DNA from: Nitrososphaerota archaeon
GTDB taxonomy: Archaea > Thermoproteota > Nitrososphaeria > Nitrososphaerales > UBA183
Direction: 5' to 3'
Assembly: GCA_027886925.1 (NCBI GenBank)
Contig: JAPCJN010000002.1
Coordinates: forward strand, 46,465-67,387
Length of the DNA: 20,923 nt
A program made the position numbers and the translations under genes. The notes beneath the pieces were generated by a model that was not told the origin of the DNA, made no database searches, and was given only the letters and a program-made list of their open reading frames with translations. This document shows, piece by piece, positions 1,185-18,942 of the stretch (the stretch's first letter is position 1; the number at the start of each line of letters is the position of its first letter).

Positions 1185-1584
1185 GGCTCGCCGCGGGGTT
1201 AGCGAGGTGGTATCTTCAATGGCCGTACTGATGATCACGATCGCGCTCCTGGGAGGCATAAGCGCGGTCGCGCTCGGGTCGATAAGGAGCTCGAGCAACC
1301 TCCTGTCATCCAGCTCCCAGAACGCGGCAAAGGGATACGCGCTCCTGCTCGCAGTCGTATCGGTTCAAACTAACTCCACCGGTTCCTACGCATGGGTCTA
1401 CAATTACGGATGGGTCCAGGGGACCCTCGCAGCGACGTACGTCGATGGGAGTTTGACGCAATCATTAACAAATTGCTCGGGAGTGGTCCAACCGCAAAAC
1501 ATGTGCTCGGTCCGCATTCCGCCGAACGCTCACGGAGAGGTGAGCCTAGTATTTGGAACGAAGAGCCTGGGTTTCTCGGTTTAG
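1168..1584 (+). CDS. Archaeal type IV pilin-like protein 3
   Basis: About 138 residues from the ATG at 1168, which has GGAGG five bases upstream and lies inside the end of the preceding gene. A TTG at 1153 is an in-frame alternative. The N-terminus has the prepilin leader pattern: basic ...ARRG followed by VSEVVSSMAVLMITIALLGG, then a small domain with two Cys and an NST sequon. The Gly-Val-Ser-Glu-Val-Val motif is typical of archaeal pilins, and PibD/FlaK-type cleavage after the Gly is expected. It is the third pilin-like gene in a row and leads directly into the assembly ATPase, so all four probably build one pilus-like structure. Confidence 0.75.
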   Translation: MPLRFEARRGVSEVVSSMAVLMITIALLGGISAVALGSIRSSSNLLSSSSQNAAKGYALLLAVVSVQTNSTGSYAWVYNYGWVQGTLAATYVDGSLTQSLTNCSGVVQPQNMCSVRIPPNAHGEVSLVFGTKSLGFSV

Positions 1585-3148: not shown

Positions 3149-4803
3149 GATTCGTAGATTTCCTTCACCCTTTCTATGGTGTCGATGTCCGCGGGCCGCT
3201 TGTCGTCCCTTACGCGCTTGATTCGGGGGAACCTCAGGGCGTATCCGCTGTCGTGCCTTTCGCTCCTCTGCACGCTGTCGAAGGCGACCTCGAGCACAAT
3301 CTCGGGCTTTACCTCCATGCGGTAACCTCCGCTCCCCCGCGCGAGTCTCTTTATGCGAACCATCAACTCGTCGATTTCTTCGTCGGTGAGCCCCGAGTAG
3401 GCCTTGCCGATCACTTTCAACTCTTCCCCGTCCTTCACCGCGAAGGTGTAGTCGCTTATCTTCCCGGCCCTCTTCCCGTGCCCGTATTCCGCCGCGACCA
3501 TCACGACATCGAGCGTGTCCAGCTCCTCTTTGAGCTTGGCCCAATACCTCCCCCTTCGTCCGGGCGTGTAGGGGCTGTCAGGCTCCTTGAGGACGAGTCC
3601 CTCGTATCCGAGCCTCCTACTCTCCCTGAAGAAGGCCTCGATTTCCATCGCATCATGAACGGTCTTGGTGTCAGCCTTGTAGATGTCGGTCCCCTCGAGT
3701 ATCTCCCACAGCGCCCTGCGTCTCGAGTCGAAAGGATCCTCGTAGGTGGGGCGACCGTCGAGATAGAGGATGTCGAAGGAAAAGTACCGGGCGGGCGCGA
3801 TGAGCCTAGATTCCCCTTTGTCCACTTTCCGCAGCCTGCGCTGAAGGAGCTGGAACGAGATCGGCCCCTGTCCTTCTTTGAACGCCACGATCTCGCCGTC
3901 GAGGATCATGTCGTGAGGTATCTTCGCCGCCGCCTCGGCCACCTCCGGGAAGCTCGCCGTTATCTCCTCGAGCCTCCGAGAGAAAATCTTCACCTCGTTC
4001 CTGGCCTTGTGGACCTGCGCCCTCACTCCGTCGTACTTGAACTCCGCATAGAGCTCTTTCCCCTCGAAGTACTTCGCTATTTCCTCTGCATTTGGCATAG
4101 GTTCGGCGAGCATGAAACTCGCAGGGCGCATCGGCTCGATCTTCACCTCTCCGAGCCGACCGGCCTTCGCCTCCCTCGCGAGTAGGCCGATGTCTCCGAG
4201 CATCAGATAGGCGCGCTTCACCCTCTCCTTCCCGCCGCCGTCGAAGGCGGCGGCTATTGCCTCCTCGACCAGGCCCTCGACCAGGCCTATCCTCATCTCC
4301 TTGCTCAAGATCTTTACGATGTACTTCGCCTCTAGCGCGCTCTCGCTGCGGAGCAAGAGGGACCTGACCATCTCCCTCTTCAACAAGGCCGATCCCTTGC
4401 CTCGGGACTCGGTCATCCGCTCGAAAATAGAAGCGACGTCGAGGATGCTCAGCCTTCCCTCGGCGCCCTGGAAGAGGGTCGTCTCCTTCTTCCGCCCAAT
4501 GAACTCAGCGACGGCCTCGCTGAGGTCTCCGTGTTTGAGGTAGCTCTGGCTCAACTCGGCCTGAGTCACCCCCGTCACCTCGCGAAAGGCGCCGATGAGC
4601 GTCGAGTATCCCACTTGCGTCTCGTCGGCGCTCCCCTTGCGGGTCGCCTTCCCGGTCGCGAACCTCGCGGCGAAACCGACCTCCTCTTCGGTTAGGCGCG
4701 CAAGGAGGTTGGCGAGTATCGAGACCTTCTCGTTCTTCCCTCTGGCGAGCTTCACCTTTTCCAGCGTCTCCGCGAGATCTTGGAACTTGGTCGCTGTTGT
4801 CAA
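3121..4803 (-). CDS. lig: ATP-dependent DNA ligase
   Basis: Seals nicks in DNA during replication and repair by forming an enzyme-AMP intermediate. It has 560 residues, normal for archaeal replicative ligases. Domain order is an N-terminal DNA-binding domain (about 1-220), an adenylation domain with motif I KYDGVR (nucleophile Lys256), a motif III-like SFDILYLDG at 342-350, motif IV EGLVLK at 401-406 and motif V WAKLK at 421-425, then an OB-fold domain. The start is a TTG with GGAG three bases upstream and a TATA-like element about 38 nt upstream. ATP rather than NAD dependence follows from the archaeal/eukaryotic-type motif set. Its end overlaps the secretion ATPase gene tail-to-tail by 28 nt. 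Confidence 0.95.
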   Translation of the reverse strand: MTTATKFQDLAETLEKVKLARGKNEKVSILANLLARLTEEEVGFAARFATGKATRKGSADETQVGYSTLIGAFREVTGVTQAELSQSYLKHGDLSEAVAEFIGRKKETTLFQGAEGRLSILDVASIFERMTESRGKGSALLKREMVRSLLLRSESALEAKYIVKILSKEMRIGLVEGLVEEAIAAAFDGGGKERVKRAYLMLGDIGLLAREAKAGRLGEVKIEPMRPASFMLAEPMPNAEEIAKYFEGKELYAEFKYDGVRAQVHKARNEVKIFSRRLEEITASFPEVAEAAAKIPHDMILDGEIVAFKEGQGPISFQLLQRRLRKVDKGESRLIAPARYFSFDILYLDGRPTYEDPFDSRRRALWEILEGTDIYKADTKTVHDAMEIEAFFRESRRLGYEGLVLKEPDSPYTPGRRGRYWAKLKEELDTLDVVMVAAEYGHGKRAGKISDYTFAVKDGEELKVIGKAYSGLTDEEIDELMVRIKRLARGSGGYRMEVKPEIVLEVAFDSVQRSERHDSGYALRFPRIKRVRDDKRPADIDTIERVKEIYESQKVKADAA

Positions 4804-4836
4804 TTCTCCGTGACGTGACCGCCAGGATATTCGGGA

Positions 4837-4845
4837 CCTATATTG
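4837..4845 (-). promoter_or_regulatory. TATA-like element of the DNA ligase gene
   Basis: Read on the minus strand this is CAATATAGG, centred about 38 nt upstream of the ligase TTG. It would give a short leader of about 12 nt, which contains the GGAG next to the start. It implies the ligase can be transcribed separately from the acetyltransferase gene 63 nt upstream. Confidence 0.35.
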
Positions 4846-4866
4846 ATGTCTGTTCGGAGAAACGTT

Positions 4867-5364
4867 TCAGAGGGACTGGGCCATCAGGTACGCAGACTCG
4901 CCATCCTTGTAGTAGCCCTGCATCGTCCCTGTCACCTGGAAGCCCAGCTTCCTATAGAGCCTCACCGCGTCGTCATTGGTGACCCTCACCTCAAGGAAGA
5001 CTTCCTTGCAAGAGCCCTTCCTCATCTCCTCCATGACCTGCTTGATGAGCATGGTGCCGACACCCTTTCCTCTATGCTTCTCCAGCGTAGCGACAGAGAT
5101 GATGTGTCCCTTGCGGGCCAGGCCAAAACGCCTTATGACTGAAAGACCATACTCTATCCTACACATCACGTAACTTACGAGCTCGCCTTCGAGGTCGGCA
5201 ACGATGAACGTGTTGGGGAACTCGTTGAGTATCTCGTAGTAGAAATAGTCTGAGTAGTGCTCGGGGAGCGTCAGAGCATTCACGTTCACGACGCTGGGGA
5301 TGTCTGAAGCTTCGCAGTAGCGTATCGAGTAATCTCCCGCCTTGCCTATTACTGATTTTTGCAT
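4867..5364 (-). CDS. GNAT-family N-acetyltransferase (RimI/Ard1-like)
   Basis: Transfers acetyl from acetyl-CoA, most likely to protein N-termini as archaeal Ard1/RimI-type enzymes do. The acetyl-CoA pyrophosphate loop is HRGKGVG (about 97-103, matching R-x-x-G-x-G). It is followed by the conserved LEVRVTNDDAVRLYRKLGF region (about 124-142) and the YYKDGESAYLM strand near the C-terminus, all typical of the RimI/Ard1 branch. Length (165 aa) matches the family. The ATG at 5364 is preceded by a TATA-like element. The downstream neighbour on the same strand is DNA ligase, 63 nt away. The exact substrate cannot be deduced. Confidence 0.88.
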   Translation of the reverse strand: MQKSVIGKAGDYSIRYCEASDIPSVVNVNALTLPEHYSDYFYYEILNEFPNTFIVADLEGELVSYVMCRIEYGLSVIRRFGLARKGHIISVATLEKHRGKGVGTMLIKQVMEEMRKGSCKEVFLEVRVTNDDAVRLYRKLGFQVTGTMQGYYKDGESAYLMAQSL

Positions 5365-5390
5365 CCGCTATCTCGGACGGCTCCCGTCCC

Positions 5391-5400
5391 CTAAATAAGG
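5391..5400 (-). promoter_or_regulatory. TATA box of the GNAT gene
   Basis: Reads CCTTATTTAG on the minus strand, centred about 31 nt upstream of the ATG at 5364. It predicts transcription starting only a few bases before the start codon. Confidence 0.45.
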
Positions 5401-5658
5401 TTCGCCGGATATTTGCCGATATGTCTCTTCAAGGCGCACTTGAGTCGGTTGCCTTGGTCTCTATCACGACGCGGGGCTGAATGGAATTGGAATGTATCGG
5501 AGATCACAGCGCAATACTCCGTTCAAGGTAGTCTGGGACGCTCGTATTCTCCAACTAACAGGAATCTTCTGAAGGGGCAAGATGCTTTTGCCTATCTGCT
5601 CCACCCTGCTGGACTGTCCCTGCCGCAGAACAATCTATTGAATAGAGATTGGGTCGTC

Positions 5659-5730
5659 CTCCTCGACTGAGGGCCGCGATCCTCGCAGCCTCTGGAGAGG
5701 CATGGCGTGATGGCTCGACATGACGAGGAG
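5659..5730. other. Possible structured RNA: closing stem with two inner hairpins
   Basis: CTCCTCG (5659-5665) can pair with CGAGGAG (5724-5730). Between them are GCGA-TCC-TCGC (5676-5686) and GCCTC-TGGA-GAGGC (5688-5701). Together they could form a branched fold. The stems are short and no family is recognised. Archaeal intergenic DNA of this GC content can produce such stems by chance. Confidence 0.25.
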
Positions 5731-5938
5731 TAGGTGCGACTCAGCGATTTCTCTGTTCTTTGAAAGGGTCTAAGGTCGTACAACAACCCCCCAGGCCGAC
5801 GGCCCAGCGAAACTGGAAGCGTTTTCCTCCACATCTCATAGTTAATCAGTCTGGCATGATCACCTGGGATTGCCAGGGAACGGGGAGTCTTCCAATCGAG
5901 GCGCCCTTGGTGACGATATCCATTTGCCGCACGCTAAG

Positions 5939-5946
5939 GTTTATTG
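5939..5946 (+). promoter_or_regulatory. TATA-like element of the M50 homologue gene
   Basis: GTTTATTG lies about 34 nt upstream of the TTG at 5976. It predicts a leader of under 10 nt and supports choosing that TTG as the start codon. Confidence 0.35.
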
Positions 5947-5975
5947 CGATTGCATCGCGACCTCTCTAGAAGCAT

Positions 5976-7130
5976 TTGTCGGCGATAAACACCGAGGTCG
6001 ATTCCGCGGTGAGGTCGCTCTTCTCTGTGAACGACTACTTCGTCGCAGAGGAAGGGGCGGCCGAATACAGCGTCGCCTTCGACAACCGGTCTTCTTCGAA
6101 TTTCTTGAAGCTGTTGAAACTGCTGAAGAGGCCGGGTTACTCTGCGCAGCTCTACGGGGATCCAGAGCATGCCACGCTCCTCGTCACCAAGAATCCTCCC
6201 TTGCCGGAGCGCCGTCCCCAGGTCCTGAAGCTGAGCGCGCCGGTATTCTTGTTCTTCCTCACATTGCTCTCGACCTTCGTGACGGGTTACGTGGTCGCGG
6301 TGATTTTCCCCGACATCGCCCCAAACAGCTCGCCGCTCGAGATGGGCGCGGGGTTCGAGGCCGGTCTGCTCGCGGTTTTGGTCTCGCGCGAGCTCGTGCA
6401 CCGCTACATAGAAGGCAAGGGGAGCTTCTCGTCGGTCTCTTACTTCCTGCCTAACGTCCCACTGTTCGTCCCTATCCCGACCATGTACTTCCTGCCCACC
6501 TTCGGGTCAGTGAGCTTCCCTTCGACCCCGTCTGCGAACAGGAACAAGCTTTTTGACTTTTATTTCCTCGGTTCACTGGTAGCGGTCGCCGTTGCCGCGG
6601 TGGTCGCCTTCCTGGGGGCCGGCACGTCGGTCGTCCTCAGCCAGTCCGATTATGCCGCCCTTTTGGCGGGGAACCAGACCGCGACCATCCAGACAAACCC
6701 GAGCATCATCCAGACCGCGGCGCTCTCGCTCGCGCAGTCCGTCGGGCTCTCTCCCGCGGTCCCACCGGGAGGGACGCTGATTTTCTCGCCGATTGAGATC
6801 GCTGCGTGGCTCGGCCTCCTCTTGGCCTTCTTCAACCTCATGCCGGCAGGTCTCTTCGACGGCGGAAGGATGGCACGTCTCGTCCTGGGCGACAAGGGGA
6901 GCAGGGCCACCACGATGGTCACCGGGGCGCTGCTTCTCGTGGTCGACCTCCCCAACTACTGGGTCATCTTCGTGCTCCTCTTCCTTATGGCCTCATTCCC
7001 GGTCCAGGGGGAGACGCTAGATTCGATCTCGGGTCTGTCCTCCTCGAGGAAGGCCGTCTTCGTCGTGGCTATCGTGGTAGGGCTTCTGTGCGTCCCGAGC
7101 CCGCAAACCTTCGCTACGCTTCCCGCCTAG
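5976..7130 (+). CDS. Site-2 protease (M50) family membrane protein with degenerate active site
   Basis: Polytopic membrane protein of 384 residues resembling archaeal/plant-type site-2 proteases, which cleave substrates inside the membrane. Order: a cytoplasmic N-terminal domain (1-85), a first TM (about 87-110), the region where HExxH is expected, the conserved TFG...NRNKLFDF segment (175-195), further TMs, the third motif NLMPAGLFDGG at 287-297, and more TMs. The zinc motif reads RELVH (138-142): the first His is Arg, encoded CGC, one base from CAC. The Ala-Gly-Pro normally following the NR-LFD segment is also missing (FLGSLVAV). So it is probably an inactive paralogue or one working differently. 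The start is TTG, supported by an upstream TATA-like element. It ends sharing a CTAG with the convergent gene. Confidence 0.8.
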   Translation: MSAINTEVDSAVRSLFSVNDYFVAEEGAAEYSVAFDNRSSSNFLKLLKLLKRPGYSAQLYGDPEHATLLVTKNPPLPERRPQVLKLSAPVFLFFLTLLSTFVTGYVVAVIFPDIAPNSSPLEMGAGFEAGLLAVLVSRELVHRYIEGKGSFSSVSYFLPNVPLFVPIPTMYFLPTFGSVSFPSTPSANRNKLFDFYFLGSLVAVAVAAVVAFLGAGTSVVLSQSDYAALLAGNQTATIQTNPSIIQTAALSLAQSVGLSPAVPPGGTLIFSPIEIAAWLGLLLAFFNLMPAGLFDGGRMARLVLGDKGSRATTMVTGALLLVVDLPNYWVIFVLLFLMASFPVQGETLDSISGLSSSRKAVFVVAIVVGLLCVPSPQTFATLPA

Positions 7131-8221
7131 GGGAGCACTGTCTCGCAGGCGCGAGTGACCACGTTCAGCTTCGCGTTCCTCCCGATCGAGGCGAAGACCT
7201 TGCCGAGCGCTTCTCCTGAGCCGCGGGCGGTCCTGAATCTGAGCTTGCCTCCGGCGTAGAGCTCAGGCAGGGATGAGATTAAGGTGACCGAGTACTTCTC
7301 CCTGAGATCGAGCACATACGATATCTCCTCGAGGCTCTCGACATAACTACCTCTCTTCAGGAAACTTTCGCTCATTCTCCCCGTTAGGTACAACTGTAAG
7401 GCCTCTGAGCCCATCCCTTCTTTGCACTCCGCGACCAGCACTATCTCCCCGCCCTTCCTGACGCCCTTCAGCGAGCCGACCGCCAGCCTGATGGCGTGCG
7501 AGAGGCTATCGTCGTATCCCTTCCCACCGACGCCGACTACCATCCCTTTGGTCTGGGGGACTTCGTCGGAAAGGTAATGGGTCCGTGCCTGCTTCACTGC
7601 GTCGCCTTCCACGATTGAATACGGCGCTCCTCCTCGGGTGATGATGGTGGCGTAGCCCGCGTCGTTGGCCCCTGATCCTTCGAACAGCGAGCGCACCGCC
7701 GAGTAGCTGGGCGAGTCCTCGCGGAGGGGCTGGGGTGCGTCACCATCGCGCCGCTCGTAAGCAAGCCTCCTCGCTCCCTCGATGCAGCTCATCGCAAGGG
7801 CAACTGGTGCATCGATGAATCCAAGAAGGGGATCAGGTTCGCCGGTGGCGATCGAAAACTTCTTGGTGGGCTCTTGTAGATCTGGCGATACCCTTGTCGC
7901 CTTCGTCGAGCCCGCCGGCGGCCGCAGCTTCAAGACGAGGTCTTTGAGTTCGGGGACTTCGGACTCGAGCTTCCGCGGCTCGGCTGCCACGAACCTCACT
8001 CCTTCTTTGGGAAGCCGGGCGACAAGCGCCTTGACTACTTTGACCGTCGCTGGCTTGAGGTCCAAGATGAAAATCCTTTCTGCGCCCTTCAACCGCTCGA
8101 GGAGCGTCACAACCATCTCGTCGAGGTGTGACTCGGGCCGCGGGTCCAGGGTCTCCCCGAGGTTCTCTTGCATGAGCGTGATCAGCGACTCGACCTCTCC
8201 GTAAGGGACCCAGATTTCCAT
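7127..8221 (-). CDS. LarA/DUF2088-like (lactate racemase-related) protein
   Basis: 364 residues. The C-terminal half matches the LarA fold: GGKGYDDSLSHAIRLAVGS (232-250) followed by KGGEIVLVAECKEGMGSE (256-273), the counterpart of the GG-x-D-x-N-x-x-Q-A ... VAEC-x-EG segment in lactate racemases. The N-terminus begins with WVPYGEVE, as LarA proteins do with a Pro-Tyr-Gly. The middle section (50-190) lacks the family's GTH and PH-x-x-GFSGG-type motifs and the catalytic Lys region, so I doubt Ni-pincer racemase activity. It could be a diverged hydroxyacid-binding or regulatory paralogue. It is divergent from pyrE, with about 100 bp between. It shares its stop-codon bases with the M50 homologue (palindromic CTAG). 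The start is an ATG without an obvious Shine-Dalgarno. Confidence 0.72.
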   Translation of the reverse strand: MEIWVPYGEVESLITLMQENLGETLDPRPESHLDEMVVTLLERLKGAERIFILDLKPATVKVVKALVARLPKEGVRFVAAEPRKLESEVPELKDLVLKLRPPAGSTKATRVSPDLQEPTKKFSIATGEPDPLLGFIDAPVALAMSCIEGARRLAYERRDGDAPQPLREDSPSYSAVRSLFEGSGANDAGYATIITRGGAPYSIVEGDAVKQARTHYLSDEVPQTKGMVVGVGGKGYDDSLSHAIRLAVGSLKGVRKGGEIVLVAECKEGMGSEALQLYLTGRMSESFLKRGSYVESLEEISYVLDLREKYSVTLISSLPELYAGGKLRFRTARGSGEALGKVFASIGRNAKLNVVTRACETVLP

Positions 8222-8321
8222 TGGGCGCTTCTATCGCAAGACCTGTCTGTCCGGCGTCTATCAAGTTTTGTTGTCGATATCCTCCCCACTCTTTTTCTAG
8301 GGCGGCCGGAAGGCCCTGTCC

Positions 8322-8945
8322 ATGGCCTGGAAGCGCAAGGAACTCCTCGAGGAGTTGGCAATGGTGCTCGTAAAGGTCAAGGCCATCCAGTTCGGGACTT
8401 TTACCTTGGCGAGCGGGAAGATCAGCTCATATTATGTCGACCTCCGGGCGGTCCCGAGTTACCCAGGCGCCTATCGCGCTCTCATCAACGCCTACGGCGA
8501 GTTTCTGCGCCATCAGATCGATGACGCGAGCTACGACGCCATCGCGGGAATACCCACCGCGGGCCTTACTCTCTCTTCTCCGCTCGCCCTCAAAGTTGAG
8601 AAGCCTATGATCTACGTCAGGAAGGAGGTGAAGGACCATGGTAGGGCAAGGCTGGTAGAAGGTGTCACGAAGCCCGGATGGAAGGTCTTGGTCGTGGACG
8701 ACGTCATAACAAGCGGCACCTCGATACTTTCTGCGGTGCAGCCTCTCAAAGAGGAGGGATGCGAGGTCAACCAGGCCGCGGTGGTCATCGACAGGCTGGA
8801 AGGGGGCTCGCTCGCGCTCAAGAAGCAGGGGGTGAAGTTGCACGCGATGACCGACATACTTGAGCTCGTGAAGATCCTCCGGGCAAAAGCCCTTCTATCA
8901 CCTGAAGAAGCGAACGCCGTGACGAATCAAGTGCAGCGACGTTAA
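8322..8945 (+). CDS. pyrE: Orotate phosphoribosyltransferase
   Basis: Joins orotate and PRPP to make orotidine 5'-phosphate in de novo pyrimidine synthesis. The PRPP-binding loop VLVVDDVITSGTS is at 122-134. The N-terminal FGTFTLASGKISSYYVDLR (24-42) is the classic orotate-binding segment, and the YVRKEVKDHGRARLVEG stretch (98-114) is the flexible catalytic loop. The length of 207 aa is normal. It starts at ATG 8322, shares the intergenic region with the divergent LarA-like gene, and stops 19 bp before the convergent TBP gene. No other pyrimidine genes are in the window, so it is not in a pyr operon here. Confidence 0.95.
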   Translation: MAWKRKELLEELAMVLVKVKAIQFGTFTLASGKISSYYVDLRAVPSYPGAYRALINAYGEFLRHQIDDASYDAIAGIPTAGLTLSSPLALKVEKPMIYVRKEVKDHGRARLVEGVTKPGWKVLVVDDVITSGTSILSAVQPLKEEGCEVNQAAVVIDRLEGGSLALKKQGVKLHAMTDILELVKILRAKALLSPEEANAVTNQVQRR

Positions 8946-8964
8946 CAGCGATATCCTCAGGCGC

Positions 8965-9522
8965 CTAGTAGACCATCAAGTTCTTTTCCTCAAGAAGGAC
9001 GTGCAGGTTGTTCACGGCCCTGTAGACCTCGCTCTCCCTCTTGGCTCCCGTGCAGACTAGCTTCCCTGAGGCGAAGAGGAGGATTACCGTCTTGGGGTCT
9101 GCCATCCTGTGGATGAGACCTGGGAACTGCTCTGGCTCGTACATCGACTTTGGGAGCTGCCGAGCCGCCTCCTCGAGGTGGACCTTCCCTCCAAGATTGG
9201 CCGACGCGACGATGTTTTGGATCTGTATTTCCGCCTCGTTCTTGATCGGGATGCTGCCCTTCTTCAATCGCCTGACGACCTCCTGCACAGCCTTCCGCGC
9301 CTGTTCCTCAGACTTGGCGCCTGTGCAAACCATCTTTCCGGAGCTGAAGATGAGCGTCGCGGTCTTTGGAGTTTTGAGTCTGAAGACGAGGCCTGGGAAC
9401 TGGTCCGGATGATATTCGACGTCTACGAAATTCTTGGTTATCTGATTTAGGTCTACCGTCTGGTTTATCGACGCTGACGCGACCACGTTCTCGATGCTGA
9501 CGATTGCCTTCGTCTGTGGCAT
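8965..9522 (-). CDS. tbp: TATA-box-binding protein (TBP)
   Basis: General archaeal transcription factor that binds and bends promoter TATA boxes and recruits TFB and RNA polymerase. The 185 residues form the expected two direct repeats: about 12-90 (with FPGLVFRLKTPKTATLIFSSG and VCTGAKS) and about 103-180 (with FPGLIHRMADPKTVILLFASG and VCTGAKR). The conserved saddle motifs are intact in both. The ATG at 9522 has a TATA box centred 25 nt upstream, so the mRNA is probably leaderless. It converges with pyrE and is divergent from a small membrane protein gene. It is strong evidence for an archaeal source. Confidence 0.97.
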   Translation of the reverse strand: MPQTKAIVSIENVVASASINQTVDLNQITKNFVDVEYHPDQFPGLVFRLKTPKTATLIFSSGKMVCTGAKSEEQARKAVQEVVRRLKKGSIPIKNEAEIQIQNIVASANLGGKVHLEEAARQLPKSMYEPEQFPGLIHRMADPKTVILLFASGKLVCTGAKRESEVYRAVNNLHVLLEEKNLMVY

Positions 9523-9542
9523 TTGACGCCGCGGAGTCGGCG

Positions 9543-9552
9543 ACTATATAAG
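9543..9552 (-). promoter_or_regulatory. TATA box of the TBP gene
   Basis: ACTATATAAG (plus strand) reads CTTATATAGT toward the TBP gene and is centred 25 nt from its ATG, predicting a leaderless transcript. A second AT-rich element, TATAAAA at 9556-9562, lies directly behind it and might act as an alternative TATA. Confidence 0.6.
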
Positions 9553-9586
9553 TAGTATAAAAGGGAAGGCGCATTTGCGGCCGCGC

Positions 9587-9598
9587 AAGTTTTATTTG
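9587..9598 (+). promoter_or_regulatory. TATA-like element of the small membrane protein gene at 9631
   Basis: AAGTTTTATTTG is centred about 38 nt before the GTG at 9631. It predicts a leader of about a dozen bases containing the GGGGAAGA that precedes the start. Confidence 0.4.
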
Positions 9599-9630
9599 CA
9601 GGGGACAGAGGCGCAAAAGGGGAAGAAACA

Positions 9631-9936
9631 GTGTCAGGAGACCCGCACAAAGACGCCGAGGTTCACGGATCAGCTGTTCAGCACGTGGCCGCCCCGATAG
9701 GCAGGTCTTCGTCTCGCAGACTCGGGTTGATTACCATCATCATGTTGGGTTTCGCAATCCTGACATGGGGACCTTCCCTCTTCCAAAGGAACATGCAGGC
9801 GGCGTTCATACCAGCGTGGCTGACCCTGACGATAGCCACGGTGGTGATCAGCATGTGGTTCGCGAAATACATCCTGACAGCAGAAAAGTACCGAGACTCG
9901 GAGGCGGCACCGGCGCCGTCGGCTCCCTCTCACTAG
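9631..9936 (+). CDS. Small two-TM membrane protein, unknown function
   Basis: 101 residues from a GTG start with a purine-rich GGGGAAGA a few bases upstream. A hydrophilic N-terminus (1-30) precedes TM1 (about 31-46, LGLITIIMLGFAILTWG). A short loop with PSLFQRN follows, then TM2 (about 59-77, FIPAWLTLTIATVVISMWF) and an Ala/Pro/Ser-rich tail. The two-helix layout with a basic loop is reminiscent of small subunits of sodium/solute symporters, but no large subunit is nearby and I do not claim that function. The last 89 nt overlap the convergent signal peptidase gene. Confidence 0.6.
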   Translation: MSGDPHKDAEVHGSAVQHVAAPIGRSSSRRLGLITIIMLGFAILTWGPSLFQRNMQAAFIPAWLTLTIATVVISMWFAKYILTAEKYRDSEAAPAPSAPSH

Positions 9937-10519
9937 GGCTCCCACCTCCACCTCCACTATCAACTCCGCTCGCCATCTCATTTTCTTCTCCGCTCTTTCC
10001 CTCTTTAGACGGGCGAAGCTCGGCGAGGAACACGAAGAGCAGTATCAGTCCGACCAGGATGTAGTTGTAGGGATAGGGGATAATCATCGAGACTAGCCCC
10101 AGGTACGGAACCGCCAAGAAGACAACCCCCTTTACGCAAGAGGTGGGGACGGGAGGCCACTCGTATGGTTCGTCGGGATGGGGGTTGGATATCCTGTTGT
10201 CCCCCTGCGTTATCAATCCTGCACTCGTGATGTTAACCACTCTGTGGACTATGGTGAGCCCCTCAGGGTTCGGACACGACCCTCCCGGAGTGGGCTGAAT
10301 GTAGATTATCACGTCCCCGACGTGGATGTTGCTGAAGGGCACGCTATGCGCTACGACCAGGTCGCCGATTTTGAGAGTCGGGACCATGCTGCTGCTCACA
10401 ACGACGTAGACCGGAGACGAGCCGAGGGCGCTTCCCACTACGAGCTGGGCTGAGGCAACTATGATGACTACTATGAGGACGTACGTGATGCCCCGACTAA
10501 CGTTCTTGGAAAACCGCAA
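9848..10519 (-). CDS. Signal peptidase I (archaeal type)
   Basis: Membrane-bound serine protease that removes Sec/Tat signal peptides on the outer face of the membrane. TM1 spans about 10-30. The catalytic Ser is Ser44 in SSSMVPT. His92 (VHRV) takes the place of the bacterial Lys, and Asp107 (TQGDNR) completes the S-H-D set typical of archaeal and ER enzymes. A second TM lies at about 151-167. After it comes a charged, Gly/Pro-rich tail of about 55 residues that is not family-like and is encoded by the DNA overlapping the convergent small gene. The start is TTG with GAGAGG just upstream. A TATA-like CGCTTAACC lies about 33 nt upstream. It would process the secreted proteins encoded nearby. 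Confidence 0.9.
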   Translation of the reverse strand: MRFSKNVSRGITYVLIVVIIVASAQLVVGSALGSSPVYVVVSSSMVPTLKIGDLVVAHSVPFSNIHVGDVIIYIQPTPGGSCPNPEGLTIVHRVVNITSAGLITQGDNRISNPHPDEPYEWPPVPTSCVKGVVFLAVPYLGLVSMIIPYPYNYILVGLILLFVFLAELRPSKEGKSGEENEMASGVDSGGGGGSPSEREPTAPVPPPSLGTFLLSGCISRTTC

Positions 10520-11548: not shown

Positions 11549-14074
11549 ATGGCACTAAGGAACTATGTCGCCTTGTCTATAGCTCTCCTGTTCGTGTTCT
11601 CGTCACTCCCGATGGTCGATGCGGCGACCAACACGGGCATCATCACGGGGGCGCAGGCCGATCTTCACGGGCCTCGGGTGAACAAGGTTCTTTTCACGGT
11701 AATCACGTCGGACTCGACCCTGTACAACTCGCTCGCAGCGGGGACGATCCAAGGTCCTGAGTGGACCTTCACAACGGGGAGCTTCACCTCCGCGCAAACC
11801 AACACGAACCTCGTTGCGAACTCTTCTCTCGGATACTCGTTTTATGGGATAGGATTCAACATGCTCCGTCCGGTGACCAACACCACTGCGTTCAGGCAGG
11901 CGATGGCGTATCTGACAGACTACAGTTTCATAGAGAGCACAATCCTCCAAGGAGTAGCGGGGTCAGCGCAGCCTGACCTGTTCCCATGTCAGGCCTATCC
12001 TTCGGCTTGCAATACGAGTATCCCGACATACCCGTATTCCGCCACCTACACGAACGCGGTCAAAGAGTTGAAGCTATCGGGCCTCAAGGAGGGCAACACG
12101 ACTGACGTGGCCCTTAGCGCCATCACTTGGCTCTATAACGGTCAGGCATTCACCCCGAAGTTCGTCTACAGGAGCGACGACCCGCTTCGAACCGCTGTCG
12201 CGACTGCCCTGATCAAGAACGCTGCGGCGATTGGATTACAATTCAACGCCCTTGGGACCGCAAAAGCGGCTCCTGTGGTTTACTCGCCGTCTGCAGCCGC
12301 AGCGCTAAAGGCAGGAGTCTACAACCCGAGCACGGGATACAACACACCTGCGGTGTTCAACTATTCGGCGGCGCAGACGGTTGACAACTGGGACTTGTAC
12401 ACGTTCGGATGGATCACTAGCGCCAACTACAACTGGGCTTTCTCTTTCTTGAACTCGCAGAACGTCGCGACATCTCTGAACTTCATGAACTACGCCAACA
12501 AGACGATGGACTTTGACACCAACGCGATACAATACGCTTCTACCATCGCTGCGTCGAACGCCGCAGCAAAGAGGGTGGACATGGACAACGCCGTTAGCCT
12601 CCCTTACCTGATGTCGTTCTATGAGAACCTGCTATGGGCTGATTACATCAACGGATGGACCGGCTATGTCAATGTACCCGCGTACGGCCCGAACGGCATC
12701 GCGGGAATCTACTACACCCTGCTGAACGTCCACCCCACAAACAACGCCAACGGAGGGACGTTCAACTACGCTGTCCATCAATCAGCGGACGCGGGAGGGA
12801 TGAACCCGCTCTACAATACGAACTGGCAGTGGCAAGCTGACATTTGGAGCGAGATTTACGACACGCCTCTGGCGACACCGCCCGCCCAGACCAACGTGGC
12901 TCTCGCGCTAATCAACTGGATGACGACGAGCTACTCCGTAGCCAACTTTACGGGCAGCACCGGAACGGGTCCTGGATGGTTCCAGATGCAAGGGAACCAG
13001 GGCACAGCGAACAAGATAGTGCAAGGCGCCCTCGTGACCTTGAACTTCGACAAGAACATCACGTGGTCAGACAACGTGCCGCTAACAGCGGCGGACTACA
13101 ATTTCTCGCTCTATGAGCAAGGAATCTCGTCTCCATCGACCCTGCCTCTAATATCGACGCCTGTTTCGGGAGTGCTCTCTGGCCCAGAAGGGATGTGGGC
13201 AACGTACATCCCGCCCTCGAACCCCTACCAGATTCAGATTCTGGTGAACAGCTCCTCGGTTTGGAACATCCCTTCTGTGATCGTGGCTGTACTGCCTTGG
13301 CACGTGTTCAAGTACTTCAACCTGAACAAGATCGCGACGCAGAGCGCAGCAATGGACACGACGCTGCCTTATGCGCAGGCCACAGCCGCCAGCCAATGCA
13401 ACAGTCCCTGCTCGTTCCTGACCTCAACGCCGGCGCCGACATGGTTGCAGTACCTCCCCAACCTTGAGGTGGGCTCAGGGCCGTTCTGGCTAAAGGCATT
13501 CTCCGCGACGACTGGAGCCGGCGAACTAGACAAGAACGTGAACTACTTCAGGTCGGCGTGGAAGTCGACCGCAGCCAACGTGGCGGCGGGATCCTCGTTC
13601 GCATTCACGACCGACATCAATGAGACCATCTATAACGCCGGAAGTTCGACGATGGGCGGCGTTGCTTCGGGACAGGTAGGGGCGGTCCCGATAACGAACG
13701 CGACCGCGAAGGTCACGGTGATCTCCCCCAGCGGGGCCAACGTGACAACCGTAACTCTCACAGGCGGCACGAATGGCGTATACACGGCCAGCATACCTAC
13801 GACAGGCCTGTCCTCAGGGACATACGAGCTGGTAACGCAGGGCAGCTTCAACTTCCTAGGTCTGGCCAGGACCTGGTATCAGGCAACCGGCATGGCGGTC
13901 ACCGGAGGCGCGACCACCTCGACGTCGGCTGGATCTAGCACCACCAGCACGTCTTCCAGCTCTGGGACGACCACCGTGAGCGGCGGCACCGATTACACCA
14001 ACTACATCCTGGGAGCTGTAGCGATCATAGTGATCGTGGTAGTGGTCGCCGCGTTCGTCCGAAGAAGACGATAG
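11549..14074 (+). CDS. Opp/Dpp-type substrate-binding protein, apparently circularly permuted, membrane-anchored
   Basis: 841-residue extracellular binding protein of the SBP_bac_5 family that delivers peptides or similar solutes to the permeases encoded next. Order: Sec signal peptide (1-25); a block normally C-terminal in the family (about 39-396), with PRVNKVLFTVI, GIGFNMLRPVTNTTAFRQAMAYLTD and a VxGYxxx-like ending; then the block normally N-terminal (about 403-671), with GGMNPLYN...SEIYDTPL, ITWSDNVPLTAADYNFS and VGSGPFWLKAF...NVNYF; an Ig-like beta segment (about 710-785); a Ser/Thr-rich linker (786-813); and a TM anchor (817-836) with RRRR. The C-terminal anchor with Ser/Thr linker is known for archaeal binding proteins; the block order is unusual. 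The TATA box is just upstream, and GC hairpins follow the stop. Confidence 0.88.
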   Translation: MALRNYVALSIALLFVFSSLPMVDAATNTGIITGAQADLHGPRVNKVLFTVITSDSTLYNSLAAGTIQGPEWTFTTGSFTSAQTNTNLVANSSLGYSFYGIGFNMLRPVTNTTAFRQAMAYLTDYSFIESTILQGVAGSAQPDLFPCQAYPSACNTSIPTYPYSATYTNAVKELKLSGLKEGNTTDVALSAITWLYNGQAFTPKFVYRSDDPLRTAVATALIKNAAAIGLQFNALGTAKAAPVVYSPSAAAALKAGVYNPSTGYNTPAVFNYSAAQTVDNWDLYTFGWITSANYNWAFSFLNSQNVATSLNFMNYANKTMDFDTNAIQYASTIAASNAAAKRVDMDNAVSLPYLMSFYENLLWADYINGWTGYVNVPAYGPNGIAGIYYTLLNVHPTNNANGGTFNYAVHQSADAGGMNPLYNTNWQWQADIWSEIYDTPLATPPAQTNVALALINWMTTSYSVANFTGSTGTGPGWFQMQGNQGTANKIVQGALVTLNFDKNITWSDNVPLTAADYNFSLYEQGISSPSTLPLISTPVSGVLSGPEGMWATYIPPSNPYQIQILVNSSSVWNIPSVIVAVLPWHVFKYFNLNKIATQSAAMDTTLPYAQATAASQCNSPCSFLTSTPAPTWLQYLPNLEVGSGPFWLKAFSATTGAGELDKNVNYFRSAWKSTAANVAAGSSFAFTTDINETIYNAGSSTMGGVASGQVGAVPITNATAKVTVISPSGANVTTVTLTGGTNGVYTASIPTTGLSSGTYELVTQGSFNFLGLARTWYQATGMAVTGGATTSTSAGSSTTSTSSSSGTTTVSGGTDYTNYILGAVAIIVIVVVVAAFVRRRR

Positions 14075-14157: not shown

Positions 14158-15189
14158 ATGGGACTAGGCAGGTACGTAGCTCGACGCGCGCTAAACCTGG
14201 TGGTACTCCTTTTGGTCATTGTCGGGTTCAACTTCGTCCTTTTCCAGATAGTCCCGTTCACGACATCGTGCCCCGGCCTGAGCTACAACTCTTGCGTCCA
14301 GGAACTCTACGTCCCAGTCGCGCCCGCGAAGGGTGGGAACGCCTCCGCCATCATCGAGCACGAGAGGGCGCAGGTGATATCGAGTTTCGGGTTTGACCAG
14401 CCGCTGACCACGAGGTTCTTTCTCTATTTTGTCGACATGTTCACGGGCCAGTACGGGTACAACATCGGAGGCCTCATCGGCGGCCCGGTCTCGCAGACTG
14501 TGGCCGAGAGGACCCCGTATACCGTCCTCCTCCTGGGCACATCGACGATAGCCGCGTTCGTCATCGGGATAGGGGTCGGCGTCCTCTCAGCCGCTAAGCG
14601 CGGGAAGATCTTCGATGTCGGGTCTCTGGCGGTATTCCTTTTCATAAACTCCCTCCCCGTCTTTTTCGTCGGAGGCATCCTCATAATCCTCCAGATCATA
14701 ACCACACACACCGCTTACGTCAACCTGGGCACTCTCACCCTCACGAAGTACGGGTTGAACGCGATCGCCCCCACGCTCCGGGCGATGTGGCTTCCTTTCC
14801 TGTCCCTCACTCTCGTCAGCATCGGCGGTGTCTATTTGACGATGAGGGCGACCATGATCGACGTCCTCTCGGAGGACTACATTGTGATGGCCAGGGCAGA
14901 GGGGCTTGACGAGAGGAACGTCCTCTACAGGCACGCTTTCAGGAACGCCGTAATCCCGATAGCGACGCTTTTCGCCCTTTCCATCGGGTTCATCCTCGGC
15001 GGCGCGGTCATCACGGAGGCCGTCTTCGACTGGCCAGGCCTCGGCTCGGCCATATACGGCGCGGTGGTCACGAACGACTTCCCCCTCGAACAGGCCATGT
15101 TCTTCATCATCTCCCTGATGGTGCTGGCGGCGAACTTCGTCGTCGACGTCGCCTACGGCTTCCTCGACCCGAGGATAAAGGCCGGATAG
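14158..15189 (+). CDS. dppB: Peptide/nickel-type ABC transporter permease, DppB/OppB family
   Basis: Inner-membrane channel subunit of 343 residues. TM1 (about 12-33) is followed by a roughly 90-residue extracytoplasmic segment containing two Cys (38 and 46). The binding-protein-dependent transport domain follows, with five more TMs. The cytoplasmic EAA loop that docks the ATPases is seen at about 239-265 (EDYIVMARAEGLDERNV ... FRNAVIP). The C-terminus FLDPRI is typical of DppB. The ATG is preceded by its own TATA box. It should pair with the DppC-like subunit 18 bp downstream. The dpp/opp assignment is by family; the substrate could be peptides, oligosaccharides or metal chelates. Confidence 0.93.
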   Translation: MGLGRYVARRALNLVVLLLVIVGFNFVLFQIVPFTTSCPGLSYNSCVQELYVPVAPAKGGNASAIIEHERAQVISSFGFDQPLTTRFFLYFVDMFTGQYGYNIGGLIGGPVSQTVAERTPYTVLLLGTSTIAAFVIGIGVGVLSAAKRGKIFDVGSLAVFLFINSLPVFFVGGILIILQIITTHTAYVNLGTLTLTKYGLNAIAPTLRAMWLPFLSLTLVSIGGVYLTMRATMIDVLSEDYIVMARAEGLDERNVLYRHAFRNAVIPIATLFALSIGFILGGAVITEAVFDWPGLGSAIYGAVVTNDFPLEQAMFFIISLMVLAANFVVDVAYGFLDPRIKAG

Positions 15190-15207: not shown

Positions 15208-16812
15208 TTGTTGTCGACGACGAGCAATCGATCCAGGGGGTCCACGGGCCGCAGGGCCTTCGTCCAGGGATTCAAGAGGAACCTGAGGCTGTTCATCAAG
15301 TCGAAAATCGGAGTGATAGGCCTGGCCATAATCGTGTTCTTCGTCGTCCTTGCGACATTCGCCCCCTTCATCACGCAAAACGACCCCGTCTTCGGGTACA
15401 ACGTCTCCGCCCCCTATTCCGTGCCCGAGTGGGCCACGATAATCCCAAGGTACCAGAACCTCGCCGTGACCTCCTATCCGGTCGACTCGAATTCCTTCAA
15501 GAGCCAGGCCGACGTCTCCGCGTGGAACTACACTGGAGGGCACTTCTCGGTGGCCGCAGCCCCGACCGCAGGGCCTCCCGGGAACCTCACGAAGTATACG
15601 GGGAGCCTGCTCGTCAACGCCTCGACTACGGCTTCGCAGATCGAACAGACAAACCAGTACCTGCCGGGGGGTCAGCCCGTTTTCGCCATGTCCAAGTCCT
15701 TCTCCTACTCTACAAAGCCCCCGACGAACTTCGTCATCAGCGCGTTCATCGACCCTCTAGTCATGAAGAACGTCTCCGCGGTCTACGTCAACTTCCTGAT
15801 GCAGACGCCGACCAAGAACTTCTCCTTCAGCTCTGTGGATGCGTTCGCGCTCAGGAATGAGATCCAGATTACGTCCGGGCAGTTCGGCCAATGGAGGAAC
15901 GTCACCGTGCCCAGCGGCCTCCTGCCCCTCTCCGGGCTGCCCGGGTTCAGCCAGTCATCGAGCGCCGCGCAGGTGATCCTCAATCAGCCCGGCACCTATC
16001 GGTTCACCTTGGAAGTCGACGTCGTCCCGACCGGGAACAACGTCCAGACCTCGTTCTACCTCACGGGGATAACATTCCACATCCTCGGCGGGGCATACGG
16101 CCTGCTCGGCACCGACATCTACGGCAGGGACCTGTGGTCACAGTTCGTTTGGGGCTCGCAGATATCGCTTGCCATCGGGGTGCTCTCGGCGCTGGGTGCC
16201 GTCGGGATCGGGACGGTCACAGGCCTTGTCGCTGGCTACCTCGGCGGAGGCAGCGACGAGGTGATTTCGAGGGCGACGGACTTTGTTCTCGTCCTTCCGT
16301 TCCTCCCTCTGGCCATAGTGATCATCTCTTTGCTCGGGCAAAACCCCGCCCTCTACAAGAACATCTACTCGTGGGTCATCGCCCTCTTCGTCGCGCTCTC
16401 TTGGCCCGGGATAACCAGGATAATCCGTAGCCAGGTCCTCAGCGTCAAGGAGAGGCCCTACGTGGAGGCGTCGCGAGCCCTGGGAGCTGGACCGGGTCAC
16501 GTCATAAGGAGGCACATCCTCCCCAACGTCATGGGCCTGGTCTATTCGCAGACGGCCTTGAACGTCTCCGGGTTCATAATATTAGAGGCGGCGCTCGACT
16601 TCCTCGCCGTGGGAATCCACCCCATCAACACAGTGACCTGGGGTTTGACCCTGACCAACGCCCTCTCCGACGCCCTGACTAACTCGACGGTCGACTACGC
16701 TTGGTGGTGGTTCCTGCCTCCGGGCATAGCGATAGCGGCGCTCTCGCTCGCTTTCGTGCTCGTAGGCTTCGCGCTGGACAGGATTTTCAACCCGAGGCTC
16801 CGGACGAGGTGA
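15208..16812 (+). CDS. dppC: Peptide/nickel-type ABC transporter permease, DppC/OppC family, with large ectodomain
   Basis: 534 residues, against about 300 for ordinary DppC. TM1 is at about 34-54. About 200 extra residues (about 60-290) of beta-rich, Asn/Ser/Thr-rich sequence then face outside, before the normal family segment LLGTDIYGRDLWSQFVWG (299-316). Further TMs follow, and the EAA loop lies at about 417-443 (PYVEASRALGAGPGHVIRRH). The family C-terminus FALDRIFNPRLR is intact. TTG at 15208 or the adjacent TTG at 15211 is the start, with GGAG 3-6 nt upstream. It follows dppB by 18 bp and precedes the ATPase genes. The inserted domain may dock the unusual binding protein or contact the substrate. 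Confidence 0.92.
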   Translation: MLSTTSNRSRGSTGRRAFVQGFKRNLRLFIKSKIGVIGLAIIVFFVVLATFAPFITQNDPVFGYNVSAPYSVPEWATIIPRYQNLAVTSYPVDSNSFKSQADVSAWNYTGGHFSVAAAPTAGPPGNLTKYTGSLLVNASTTASQIEQTNQYLPGGQPVFAMSKSFSYSTKPPTNFVISAFIDPLVMKNVSAVYVNFLMQTPTKNFSFSSVDAFALRNEIQITSGQFGQWRNVTVPSGLLPLSGLPGFSQSSSAAQVILNQPGTYRFTLEVDVVPTGNNVQTSFYLTGITFHILGGAYGLLGTDIYGRDLWSQFVWGSQISLAIGVLSALGAVGIGTVTGLVAGYLGGGSDEVISRATDFVLVLPFLPLAIVIISLLGQNPALYKNIYSWVIALFVALSWPGITRIIRSQVLSVKERPYVEASRALGAGPGHVIRRHILPNVMGLVYSQTALNVSGFIILEAALDFLAVGIHPINTVTWGLTLTNALSDALTNSTVDYAWWWFLPPGIAIAALSLAFVLVGFALDRIFNPRLRTR

Positions 16813-16822
16813 CACCCCTGCC

Positions 16823-17881
16823 ATGACGACCCCCGCCATCCGTGAGAGAGAGCCCCCCAGACTGGGGGAGGCTGTCCTCGAGGTGGGCGACCTCAGGATG
16901 TATTACACTACGTCGGCCGGCGAGGTCAAGGCCGTCGACGGGCTCAACTTTTCGGTCAAGAGGGGAGAGGTGCTGGGCGTCGTCGGCGAGAGCGGGTGCG
17001 GCAAGACCAGCCTCGCGCTGACGATAATGAAGCTCCTCCCTTCGAACGGGAAGATCAGATCGGGCCGCATACTCATCAGGGGGAGCGACGTCGTCCCGAT
17101 GTCGGACACGGAGATCAGGCGGAAGATCCGCTGGAGCGAGGTCGCGCTGATCCCGCAGGGCGCGATGAACGCGCTCAACCCGATCTTCAAGGTAGGGGAC
17201 CAGATCTCGGAGGTCATCATGGCTCACAGCCTGACCTCCAGGGCCGAGGCGCGCAAGAAGACGGAAGAGCTTCTCGTGTTGGTGGGCATCGACCCCTCGA
17301 GGGCGAGCCACTACCCGCACGAGTTCAGCGGCGGGATGAAGCAGAGAGCAATGATAGCGATGTCCCTCGCTCTCGACCCCTCCCTTCTTATCGCCGACGA
17401 ACCGACGACGGCCCTCGATGTCATCGTCCAGGCGGGGATCGTGAGGCTCCTACTCGACGTCAAGAAGAGGCTGGGAATCTCGATCATCCTGATCAGCCAC
17501 GACCTCGCGCTCGTGGCCCAGATGAGCGAGAAGGTCGCGATAATGTACGCGGGAAAGTTCGTCGAGTTCGGGACAAGCGTGGACGTCTACGGGTTGCCGC
17601 TGCACCCATACACGCTGGGATTGCTGGGCGCCTTCGCCGACATCAGGAAGCCGAAGGAAAAACTCACGGCGATCCCGGGTTCACCTCCCGACCTGCTCGA
17701 CCCTCCGAGCGGCTGCAGGTTCCGGACGAGATGCAAATACGCCCAGGAGCTCTGCGCCACCGCGGAGCCTCCCCTTGAGGAGGCGCTTCCGGGCCACTTG
17801 GTCGCCTGCCACTTTTGGAAGGACATCAAGGAGAATCGGGCCCCCATCAACCTGGGTAAGTGGGGGGAGGCCAAGGCTTGA
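16823..17881 (+). CDS. dppD: Peptide/nickel-type ABC transporter ATPase, DppD/OppD family
   Basis: Cytoplasmic nucleotide-binding subunit. Walker A GESGCGKT is at 55-62, the Q-loop Gln at 112, signature FSGGMKQ at 168-174, Walker B LLIADEP at 188-194 and the switch His at 226. The C-terminal oligopeptide/dipeptide (oligo_HPY) extension contains PPSGCRFRTRC and four Cys (298, 304, 311, 329), an arrangement known in this family and in some members reported to hold an iron-sulfur cluster. Length (352 aa) is normal. The ATG is at 16823 with GAGGTGA about 10 nt upstream. The stop overlaps the next gene's TTG. It should form a heterodimer with the DppF-like ATPase. Confidence 0.95.
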   Translation: MTTPAIREREPPRLGEAVLEVGDLRMYYTTSAGEVKAVDGLNFSVKRGEVLGVVGESGCGKTSLALTIMKLLPSNGKIRSGRILIRGSDVVPMSDTEIRRKIRWSEVALIPQGAMNALNPIFKVGDQISEVIMAHSLTSRAEARKKTEELLVLVGIDPSRASHYPHEFSGGMKQRAMIAMSLALDPSLLIADEPTTALDVIVQAGIVRLLLDVKKRLGISIILISHDLALVAQMSEKVAIMYAGKFVEFGTSVDVYGLPLHPYTLGLLGAFADIRKPKEKLTAIPGSPPDLLDPPSGCRFRTRCKYAQELCATAEPPLEEALPGHLVACHFWKDIKENRAPINLGKWGEAKA

Positions 17882-18942
17882 GCGACACCAGGTGGAGAGC
17901 CACCCTGGGTGGAGGCGACAAGGTCATCCTGGAGGTCTCGCACCTTGTAAAGCACTTCCCTGTGAGGCGGAGCTTCAGCGAGTCGCTGAGAGGAGGCAAG
18001 TCCTCGATCGTCCACGCGGTAGATGACGTGAGCTTCACAGTGAGAAAGGGGGAGATAATGGGGCTGGCGGGCGAGAGCGGGTCGGGAAAGACGACCGTCT
18101 TGAGGACGGTGCTGATGCTTACCGAGCCAACCTCAGGGTCCGTCGTCTTCGACGGGGTCGACATATCGAAGCTGAAAGGGAAAGACCTCAAAAAGTACAG
18201 GCCGAAGTTGCAAGTCGTCTTCCAGGACCCGTACGAGTCCGTGAATCCTAGAATGACCGTGTTCGACATAGTCGCCGAGGGCCTCTTCGTCAACAACCTC
18301 GTCGCTTCCCGCGAGGAGGCGGAGGAGAAGGTCTTGAAGGCTCTCCGGGACGTGCAGATAATCCCCCCCGAAGAATACCTCTACAGATACCCTCACGAGC
18401 TCTCCGGAGGCCAGCGGCAGAGGGTCGCCATAGCAAGGGCCGCGGTGCTCGATCCGGACCTCATCCTGGCAGACGAGCCTGTCTCGATGCTGGACGTCTC
18501 GATTCGCGCCGAGGTGTTGAACGTCCTCCTCGCACTCAAGAACGAGAAGGGGATATCCATCCTGATGGTAACGCACGACTTGGCGCTCTCGAAGGACGTC
18601 GTCGACAACTTGGCCGTCATGTACCTCGGGAAGATAGTCGAGTCCGGCCCGGCCGGAGAGGTGGTGGAGAAGCCGTATCACCCGTACACCCAGGCGCTGA
18701 TAGCTGCCGTCCCAGTCCCCGACCCCGGAGGCCCGCAGATAAAGGTCCTCGCGAGCGGTGAGATCCCCACCAACATCTCGCCCCCGAGCGGTTGCAGGTT
18801 CCACACGCGCTGCCCTTTCGCGCAGCAGATATGCAGCGACGTAGAGCCTCCACTCGAGGAGGTCACGCCGAAGCACCAGGTCGCCTGCCATTTTTGGAAC
18901 TTGGCCCACGAGACGTTCGGGAGAGAGTCGGCGCGAAAGTAG
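17878..18942 (+). CDS. dppF: Peptide/nickel-type ABC transporter ATPase, DppF/OppF family
   Basis: Second nucleotide-binding subunit, 354 residues from the TTG at 17878. That TTG overlaps the previous stop (TTGA) and has GGGGGAGG about 7 nt upstream, which is why it is preferred to the GTG at 17860. Walker A GESGSGKT is at about 65-72, with FQDPYESVNP as the Q-loop region, signature LSGGQRQR at about 175-182, Walker B LILADEP at about 195-201 and the switch His in VTHD. The oligo_HPY extension has PPSGCRFHTRC and again four Cys (about 306, 312, 319, 337). Together with dppD this completes the transporter. Confidence 0.95.
   Translation: MSDTRWRATLGGGDKVILEVSHLVKHFPVRRSFSESLRGGKSSIVHAVDDVSFTVRKGEIMGLAGESGSGKTTVLRTVLMLTEPTSGSVVFDGVDISKLKGKDLKKYRPKLQVVFQDPYESVNPRMTVFDIVAEGLFVNNLVASREEAEEKVLKALRDVQIIPPEEYLYRYPHELSGGQRQRVAIARAAVLDPDLILADEPVSMLDVSIRAEVLNVLLALKNEKGISILMVTHDLALSKDVVDNLAVMYLGKIVESGPAGEVVEKPYHPYTQALIAAVPVPDPGGPQIKVLASGEIPTNISPPSGCRFHTRCPFAQQICSDVEPPLEEVTPKHQVACHFWNLAHETFGRESARK

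Follow-up and report, generated by a model that had tools for sequence, protein, structure and literature searches.

Peptide- and nickel-binding proteins such as DppA, OppA, NikA and AppA belong to cluster C (SBP_bac_5), and their termini lie close together; neither the label nor this closeness served as a test in the present analysis. The natural permutation of a tethered binding protein has been described for Treponema pallidum MglB-2 (Tp0684), a glucose-binding protein of cluster B in treponemes and Gram-positive bacteria, in which three strands of one sheet have moved; the paper suggests a ‘Type Ic/Cluster Bc’ subclass and considers that the topology may be an adaptation to anchoring (PMC4990184). 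This was the one natural case among binding proteins found in our literature search, which returned no natural permutation in the peptide/nickel cluster, a weak negative from a search that subscription papers mostly escaped. In the accessible part of a further paper, SBP_bac_5 appears nowhere but in a table about domain versatility, and circular permutation is mentioned solely in a reference (PMC2588589).

We analysed a stretch of 20,923 nucleotides, hereafter the window, which, judging by its TBP and ligase genes, is archaeal chromosome. On its + strand, at 11549..14074, lies an 841-aa ORF that, by Pfam, profiles and structure comparison, very probably encodes a natural circular permutant of a cluster C (peptide/nickel, SBP_bac_5) binding protein, belonging to an archaeal DppBCDF importer. 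The protein resembles DppA, OppA, NikA and AppA in sequence and in the predicted fold of both parts, and its gene accompanies DppBCDF, but its order is rotated at the loop near DppA residue 205, and a beta-rich domain, a linker and a C-terminal anchor come after the rotated end. Both it and MglB-2 are natural permutations of a tethered binding protein relative to canonical relatives, whereas the present family is assigned to cluster C, is chiefly archaeal, and has four cut sites and apparently several origins.

After the binding-protein ORF, on the same strand, follow genes for a DppB-type permease (14158..15189; PF00528, E 4.6e-35), a lengthened DppC-type permease of 534 aa (15208..16812; PF12911 and PF00528; coordinates from a TTG start, the true start being provisional), a DppD-type ATPase (16823..17881) and a DppF-type ATPase (17860..18942), the two ATPases each with PF00005 and PF08352. 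Because its gene precedes these four, the window protein is most likely the anchored binding protein of the adjoining importer. Elsewhere in the window, positions 85-3148 hold three small ORFs with hydrophobic N-termini and no Pfam match, which by eye we take to be pilin-like, and then a type II/IV secretion ATPase (PF00437); positions 3121-10519 hold an ATP-dependent DNA ligase, a GNAT acetyltransferase, an M50 peptidase, a phosphoribosyltransferase, TBP and a signal peptidase S26 match.

The protein opens with a hydrophobic, signal-peptide-like segment (residues 1-25, 11549..11623, +), seen in the sequence, modelled as a helix at 2-18 with low confidence, and probably cleaved. The canonical C-terminal part comes first (residues 38-397, 11660..12739, +), as recognised by profiles and by a structure match to DppA 206-507. 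Five residues, NNANG (398-402, 12740..12754, +), located by structure comparison and sequence, join the old C- and N-termini, and the canonical N-terminal part comes second (403-670, 12755..13558, +), recognised by profiles and by matches to NikZ 5-186 and AppA 20-211. Beyond it lie a beta-rich, Ig/MG2-like domain (691-786, 13619..13906, +; seven model strands and a weak MG2 match, E 0.022), a linker rich in Ser, Thr and Gly (787-816, 13907..13996, +; from the sequence, with pLDDT under 50 at 789-816) and a putative C-terminal transmembrane anchor (817-839, 13997..14065, +), for which a model helix spans 817-839 and the sequence agrees; its membrane topology is presumed.

The window protein scored 73.9 bits against PF00496, above the gathering threshold of 32.4 bits, in two matches of reversed order, profile positions 146-357 preceding 19-141. 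On its own, the second half gives a weak Pfam match of 17 bits, and it takes profiles or structure to make it clear. Rotated back, with residues 401-690 followed by 39-400, it gave a single PF00496 match over profile 19-356 that scored 81.4 bits as against 73.9. When a profile of 58 rows (A1) was compared with a profile of 85 canonical proteins, residues 39-371 aligned with positions 223-515 (probability 99.7) and residues 400-670 with positions 35-225 (probability 99.5), again in reversed order. The canonical-only HMM, of 587 positions, was also run over all six frames of the window in ORF pieces of at least 25 aa, and this ORF was its sole match. The 50 structure matches listed for each half are, by their titles, of the DppA/OppA/NikA kind, which leaves room for families not listed (cluster B). 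An earlier note, made from the letters alone, had claimed that the two halves of the family stand in swapped order with a join at about residue 400. Pfam, the canonical-only profile and the structure comparison of both halves agree on the swap, and the old ends are indeed joined by residues 398-402. An alignment in ordinary N-to-C order was looked for and was absent, as were standard connectivity and a pair of unrelated domains, the halves matching complementary parts of the same folds. The permutation in ORF 11549-14074 (+) is thus confirmed, and the earlier interpretation is supported with two qualifications, concerning an origin by tandem duplication and the view of the protein as a single oddity.

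The same order, which we call type I, recurs in relatives. The note had proposed comparing the hit order of separate half-profiles and searching related archaea; half-profiles ordered 65 of 66 proteins (query included), all 65 permuted in the same way, while P0063 (479 aa) showed one part only. On the same 66, the canonical-only HMM found both parts reversed in 59, one part in six and none in one. For the P0066 family, both halves find matches (PF00496, 2e-56), with probability 100 for both segments against the canonical profile. By name, the permuted proteins include some from Nitrososphaerales, Nitrososphaeria, Conexivisphaera, Thermoprotei, Bathyarchaeota and the Asgard archaea Thorarchaeota, Odinarchaeota and Promethearchaeota, with one from Aminivibrio, a bacterial name; a Thorarchaeota protein of canonical order was also found (P0178). 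A protein of ocean ammonia oxidisers (Nitrosopumilus) seems to be among the rotated relatives, to judge from sequence. The protein at locus L083 has 100% identity to that of a record named Nitrosopumilus sp. K4, among the best 120 listed of 3056 relatives (those of 7996 candidates that pass E 0.001), and when a profile of the Nitrosopumilus family was aligned with the canonical one, its two halves came out in reversed order (probabilities 99.1 and 94.7).

In a crude hydrophobicity scan, 45 of 59 type I ORFs and 107 of 143 type I proteins had a hydrophobic segment at the C-terminus. In a type I protein bearing the name Aminivibrio (P0074, 557 aa), the binding domain forms the end of the chain; the permutation is therefore not always paired with a C-terminal anchor. 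P0074, with the similar P0076, is a possible bacterial member, as is P0158, a protein of another cut type with a lipobox-like N-terminus by eye. Several candidates for further cut types (P0018, P0040, P0017, P0037, P0050, P0051, P0054, P0058, L006, L008 and L028/L038) were not counted as such, since they have the appearance of type I genes that are truncated or broken and mimic other cut sites; L028 with L038 (from the genome of L011), and L008, are type I genes seemingly split over two frames, by frameshift or assembly error. P0194, P0199, P0203 and similar proteins, P0053 and L077 start at profile positions 228-238 and were counted as type I.

The canonical-only HMM placed the cut at four sites: about position 228 in type I, the window’s own, 272-292 in type Ib (L089, L090, L091), 365-390 in type II (L093-L097 and, by half-profiles, P0082, P0083, P0157 and P0158) and 446-460 in type III (L069, L100). 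Comparison with PDB sequences gave corresponding orders. In L090 (Ib), residues 109-345 match DppA 264-495 and residues 377-614 match 6ofq 43-262. In P0157 (II), residues 231-565 match AppA 22-345 and residues 64-191 match AppA 368-488, the latter weakly (i-Evalue 2.8) and clearly against 8efz (i-Evalue 1.6e-5). In L100 (III), residues 498-760 match DppA 175-421 and residues 299-359 match DppA 37-97 (i-Evalue 0.07); the match of residues 180-216 to 5f1q 469-505 was not significant, which leaves profiles as the basis for the first part of type III. By the crude scan, a hydrophobic segment is present at the N-terminus alone in types Ib and III and, within type II, in P0157 and P0158, while L093-L097, P0082 and P0083 (II) have hydrophobic segments at both ends.

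PF00496 was sought in 61 genomes from the phylum of the centre genome G002 (judged to be Thermoproteota) and matched in at least 59 of them; stretches were chosen by hand from the matches listed, and 30 were added automatically. A permuted-scored protein was present in 42 of the 54 sampled genomes with a classified ORF, by a profile (MIX1) that includes rotated permuted sequences and leans towards permuted proteins. By type, these were 34 genomes with I, three with Ib, six with II (one of them, G016, resting on a 324-aa ORF) and two with III, some having more than one type. Canonical proteins occurred in 35 of the 54, together with permuted ones in 23; G002, also permuted (L002), was counted apart. 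As odd-looking rows were fetched on purpose, these counts are not frequencies. With the canonical-only HMM, both parts were reversed in 24 of 56 permuted ORFs, from 21 genomes (13/45 of type I, 3/3 of Ib, 6/6 of II and 2/2 of III). The remaining 32, all type I (32/45), showed the first part alone, their second half being visible only with a profile that includes permuted relatives.

One alternative is that the permuted proteins no longer serve transport but work as receptors or adhesins, and that the swap was tolerated because transport had become dispensable. Three Nitrosopumilus-type loci (L152, L153, L166), with no Dpp-like gene within the 20-kb stretch around the permuted gene, point in this direction, but their genomes (G025, G057, G033) have genes with PF00528 and PF08352 at other places. 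In the remaining 26 of 29 loci, which include all four cut types, the permuted gene does have Dpp-like genes near it, as it does in the window. We therefore regard a loss of transport as improbable. The association varies in form: L090 has a weak DppB piece only, in L011, L157, L163 and L165 the Dpp-like genes are on the other strand or some distance off, and in L154 they are on both strands.

A second alternative is that the two halves act as separate domains of one chain, for example after fusion of two truncated genes, and form no single trap. The halves do differ in the strength of their Pfam matches, and their joint folding is predicted only: as the whole structure is a prediction, their packing into one trap rests on a pTM of 0.85 over 841 residues and on the match of the rotated sequence. 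That pTM nevertheless speaks against separate domains, as does the complementarity of the halves, which in the structure comparison cover AppA 212-520 and 20-211, so that all parts of the fold are present. The join, too, is short in most relatives, with a median of 14-17 residues between profile positions 545 and 48 in every type (range 8-96). In ten genomes picked for having one or two PF00496 matches, moreover, the permuted protein was the sole PF00496 protein found, with PF00528 and PF08352 genes present in all ten; in seven of these the protein is 55-100% identical over most of its length to that of Nitrosopumilus sp. K4/P0186, in the other three 24-30%. Separate domains are accordingly very improbable. 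That the order is canonical with misread motifs, or an assembly artefact, is scarcely credible given the same order in 65 of 66 proteins from many contigs, the recurrence of this pattern in a protein encoded on a 1.65-Mb contig and identical to the Nitrosopumilus sp. K4 record, and the structure comparison and profile alignment of both halves.

For the history of the permuted binding proteins, sequences were rotated to canonical order and aligned to MIX1, giving 440 rows, 200 without near-copies and 199 in a FastTree tree. A quick IQ-TREE analysis used 78 rows: 20 of main type I, two of a second type I clade, eight of II, two of Ib, one of III and 45 canonical, of which 27 were hand-picked and 18 random. 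Order classes were set by profile position before the tree was made, and the division of type I in two was noticed on the tree. A branch with SH-aLRT 99 separates main type I from the other rows. At least seven changes of order state are required on the 78-row tree, and for the canonical label the starred branches alone force four. AU tests rejected all permuted proteins as one clade (p 3.7e-5), all type II as one clade (p 6.7e-4) and the two type I clades together (p 1.4e-4). This tree comes from a quick analysis and has long branches, many rows flagged for unusual composition and 25 of 75 inner branches open. The window’s clade seems to have undergone a single permutation, and separate permutations, mostly at other loops, seem to have taken place in other clades of the family; the window protein is apparently one member of a larger, repeatedly permuted group.

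As to how the order arose, the tandem duplication that the earlier note called natural, with fusion of the copies and loss of the outer parts, is plausible but unproven. No double-length intermediate was present in what was examined. One long ORF was followed (2064 aa, L168:2926-9117, G071) and rejected as a fused intermediate; it holds a single canonical binding protein plus other parts, which by eye we take to be thioredoxin-like, PQQ-repeat and C39-peptidase-like. Type I tails (L077, L078, L079, P0194, P0203 and others of 13 candidates) contained no convincing second copy of a segment, and overlapping profile ranges, such as 144-361 with 4-174 or those of L077, were taken as profile extensions into the following beta-rich domain rather than as duplication. 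Adjoining binding-protein genes do occur: L005 has two type I genes in one operon, and L154 has type I and Ib side by side.

The DppC permease near type I proteins is long. The permease of E. coli DppBCDF-DppA (8z1v-8z1z) is a relative, and window DppC 296-532 corresponds to E. coli DppC 77-299; compared with the E. coli chain of 300 aa, window DppC has about 200 extra residues before this shared part. The extra segment, 227 aa at 15400..16080 (+), putatively on the outer face, lies between the N-terminal TM domain and the GTDxxGRD loop, and no Pfam domain covers it. For comparison across loci, we counted DppC ORFs within 3.5 kb of a binding protein, the nearest one deciding; lengths were taken from stop to stop and are upper bounds, some loci are near-copies (L171, L172), and the type I proteins concerned are only partly placed in the tree. 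Beside type I-scored proteins there were 33, from which we set aside L158, L160 (second type I clade by tree) and L159 (like pattern), at 357, 365 and 435 aa, together with L155 (314 aa, its own canonical binding gene lying outside the stretch) and L172 (372 aa, cut by the stretch end). All 28 remaining ORFs measured 461-619 aa, as against 178-344 aa for all 20 DppC ORFs lying nearest to canonical proteins, none of which reached 461 (L206 is cut by a contig end). For the truncated type I genes, the adjacent DppC measured 524 aa (L006), 550 aa (L008) and 516 aa (L010); it measured 293-302 aa beside true Ib, 315-369 aa beside II and 388-419 aa beside III. One contig (L155) holds a type Ib operon with a DppC of 293 aa, a type I operon with one of 461 and part of a third with 314. 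After iteration, 17 ORFs, with the window’s own among them, contain a recognisable relative of the window insert, and for the others the same test does not show kinship. DppC near type I proteins carries an extra segment, absent from DppC beside canonical binding proteins, in the window (15208-16812), L001-L012, L154, L155 and L165-L188.

The order, join, parts and operon follow from computation. The chain begins at the loop near DppA residue 205, continues to the old C-terminus, crosses the five-residue join to the old N-terminus and stops at the place of the cut; the beta-rich domain, the Ser/Thr linker and the C-terminal hydrophobic helix come next. Folding jointly, both halves would form an ordinary two-lobed trap that shuts around its ligand, most likely a peptide, and docks on DppB/DppC, and the anchor would pull on a new point of the trap. 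The extra segment of the DppC that accompanies the permuted protein in the window’s clade may face outwards and guide the docking of the trap. The anchoring idea raised for MglB-2 can be tested with the present family, because its rotated proteins differ in their anchors; the Aminivibrio protein, which has no anchor at its C-terminus, is evidence that anchoring is not the only reason. We tentatively suggest, as a possibility that we hold to be somewhat doubtful, that archaeal cluster C proteins were permuted repeatedly, at no fewer than four loops, because tethering lets the anchor move to different points of the trap, and that the permutation became fixed, within the main clade (Nitrososphaeria to Asgard archaea), along with a new outer DppC segment that docks the rotated, anchored trap.

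Natural permutation of binding proteins is known from few cases, and here one family has apparently been permuted several times. Genomes that hold canonical and differently rotated relatives together (23 of the 42 permuted genomes also have a canonical protein) amount to a natural experiment on where binding-protein loops tolerate cutting and on whether delivery to the permease depends on the point of anchoring. When a profile search presumes a single order, permuted proteins are broken up into two weaker matches, and the annotation of archaeal peptide uptake is affected as a result; in the seven picked Nitrosopumilus-type genomes, the permuted protein is the only PF00496 protein found. If our proposal is true, the proteins of the main clade would be part of a distinct architecture of importer, on which ammonia oxidisers of the ocean, among other organisms, rely.
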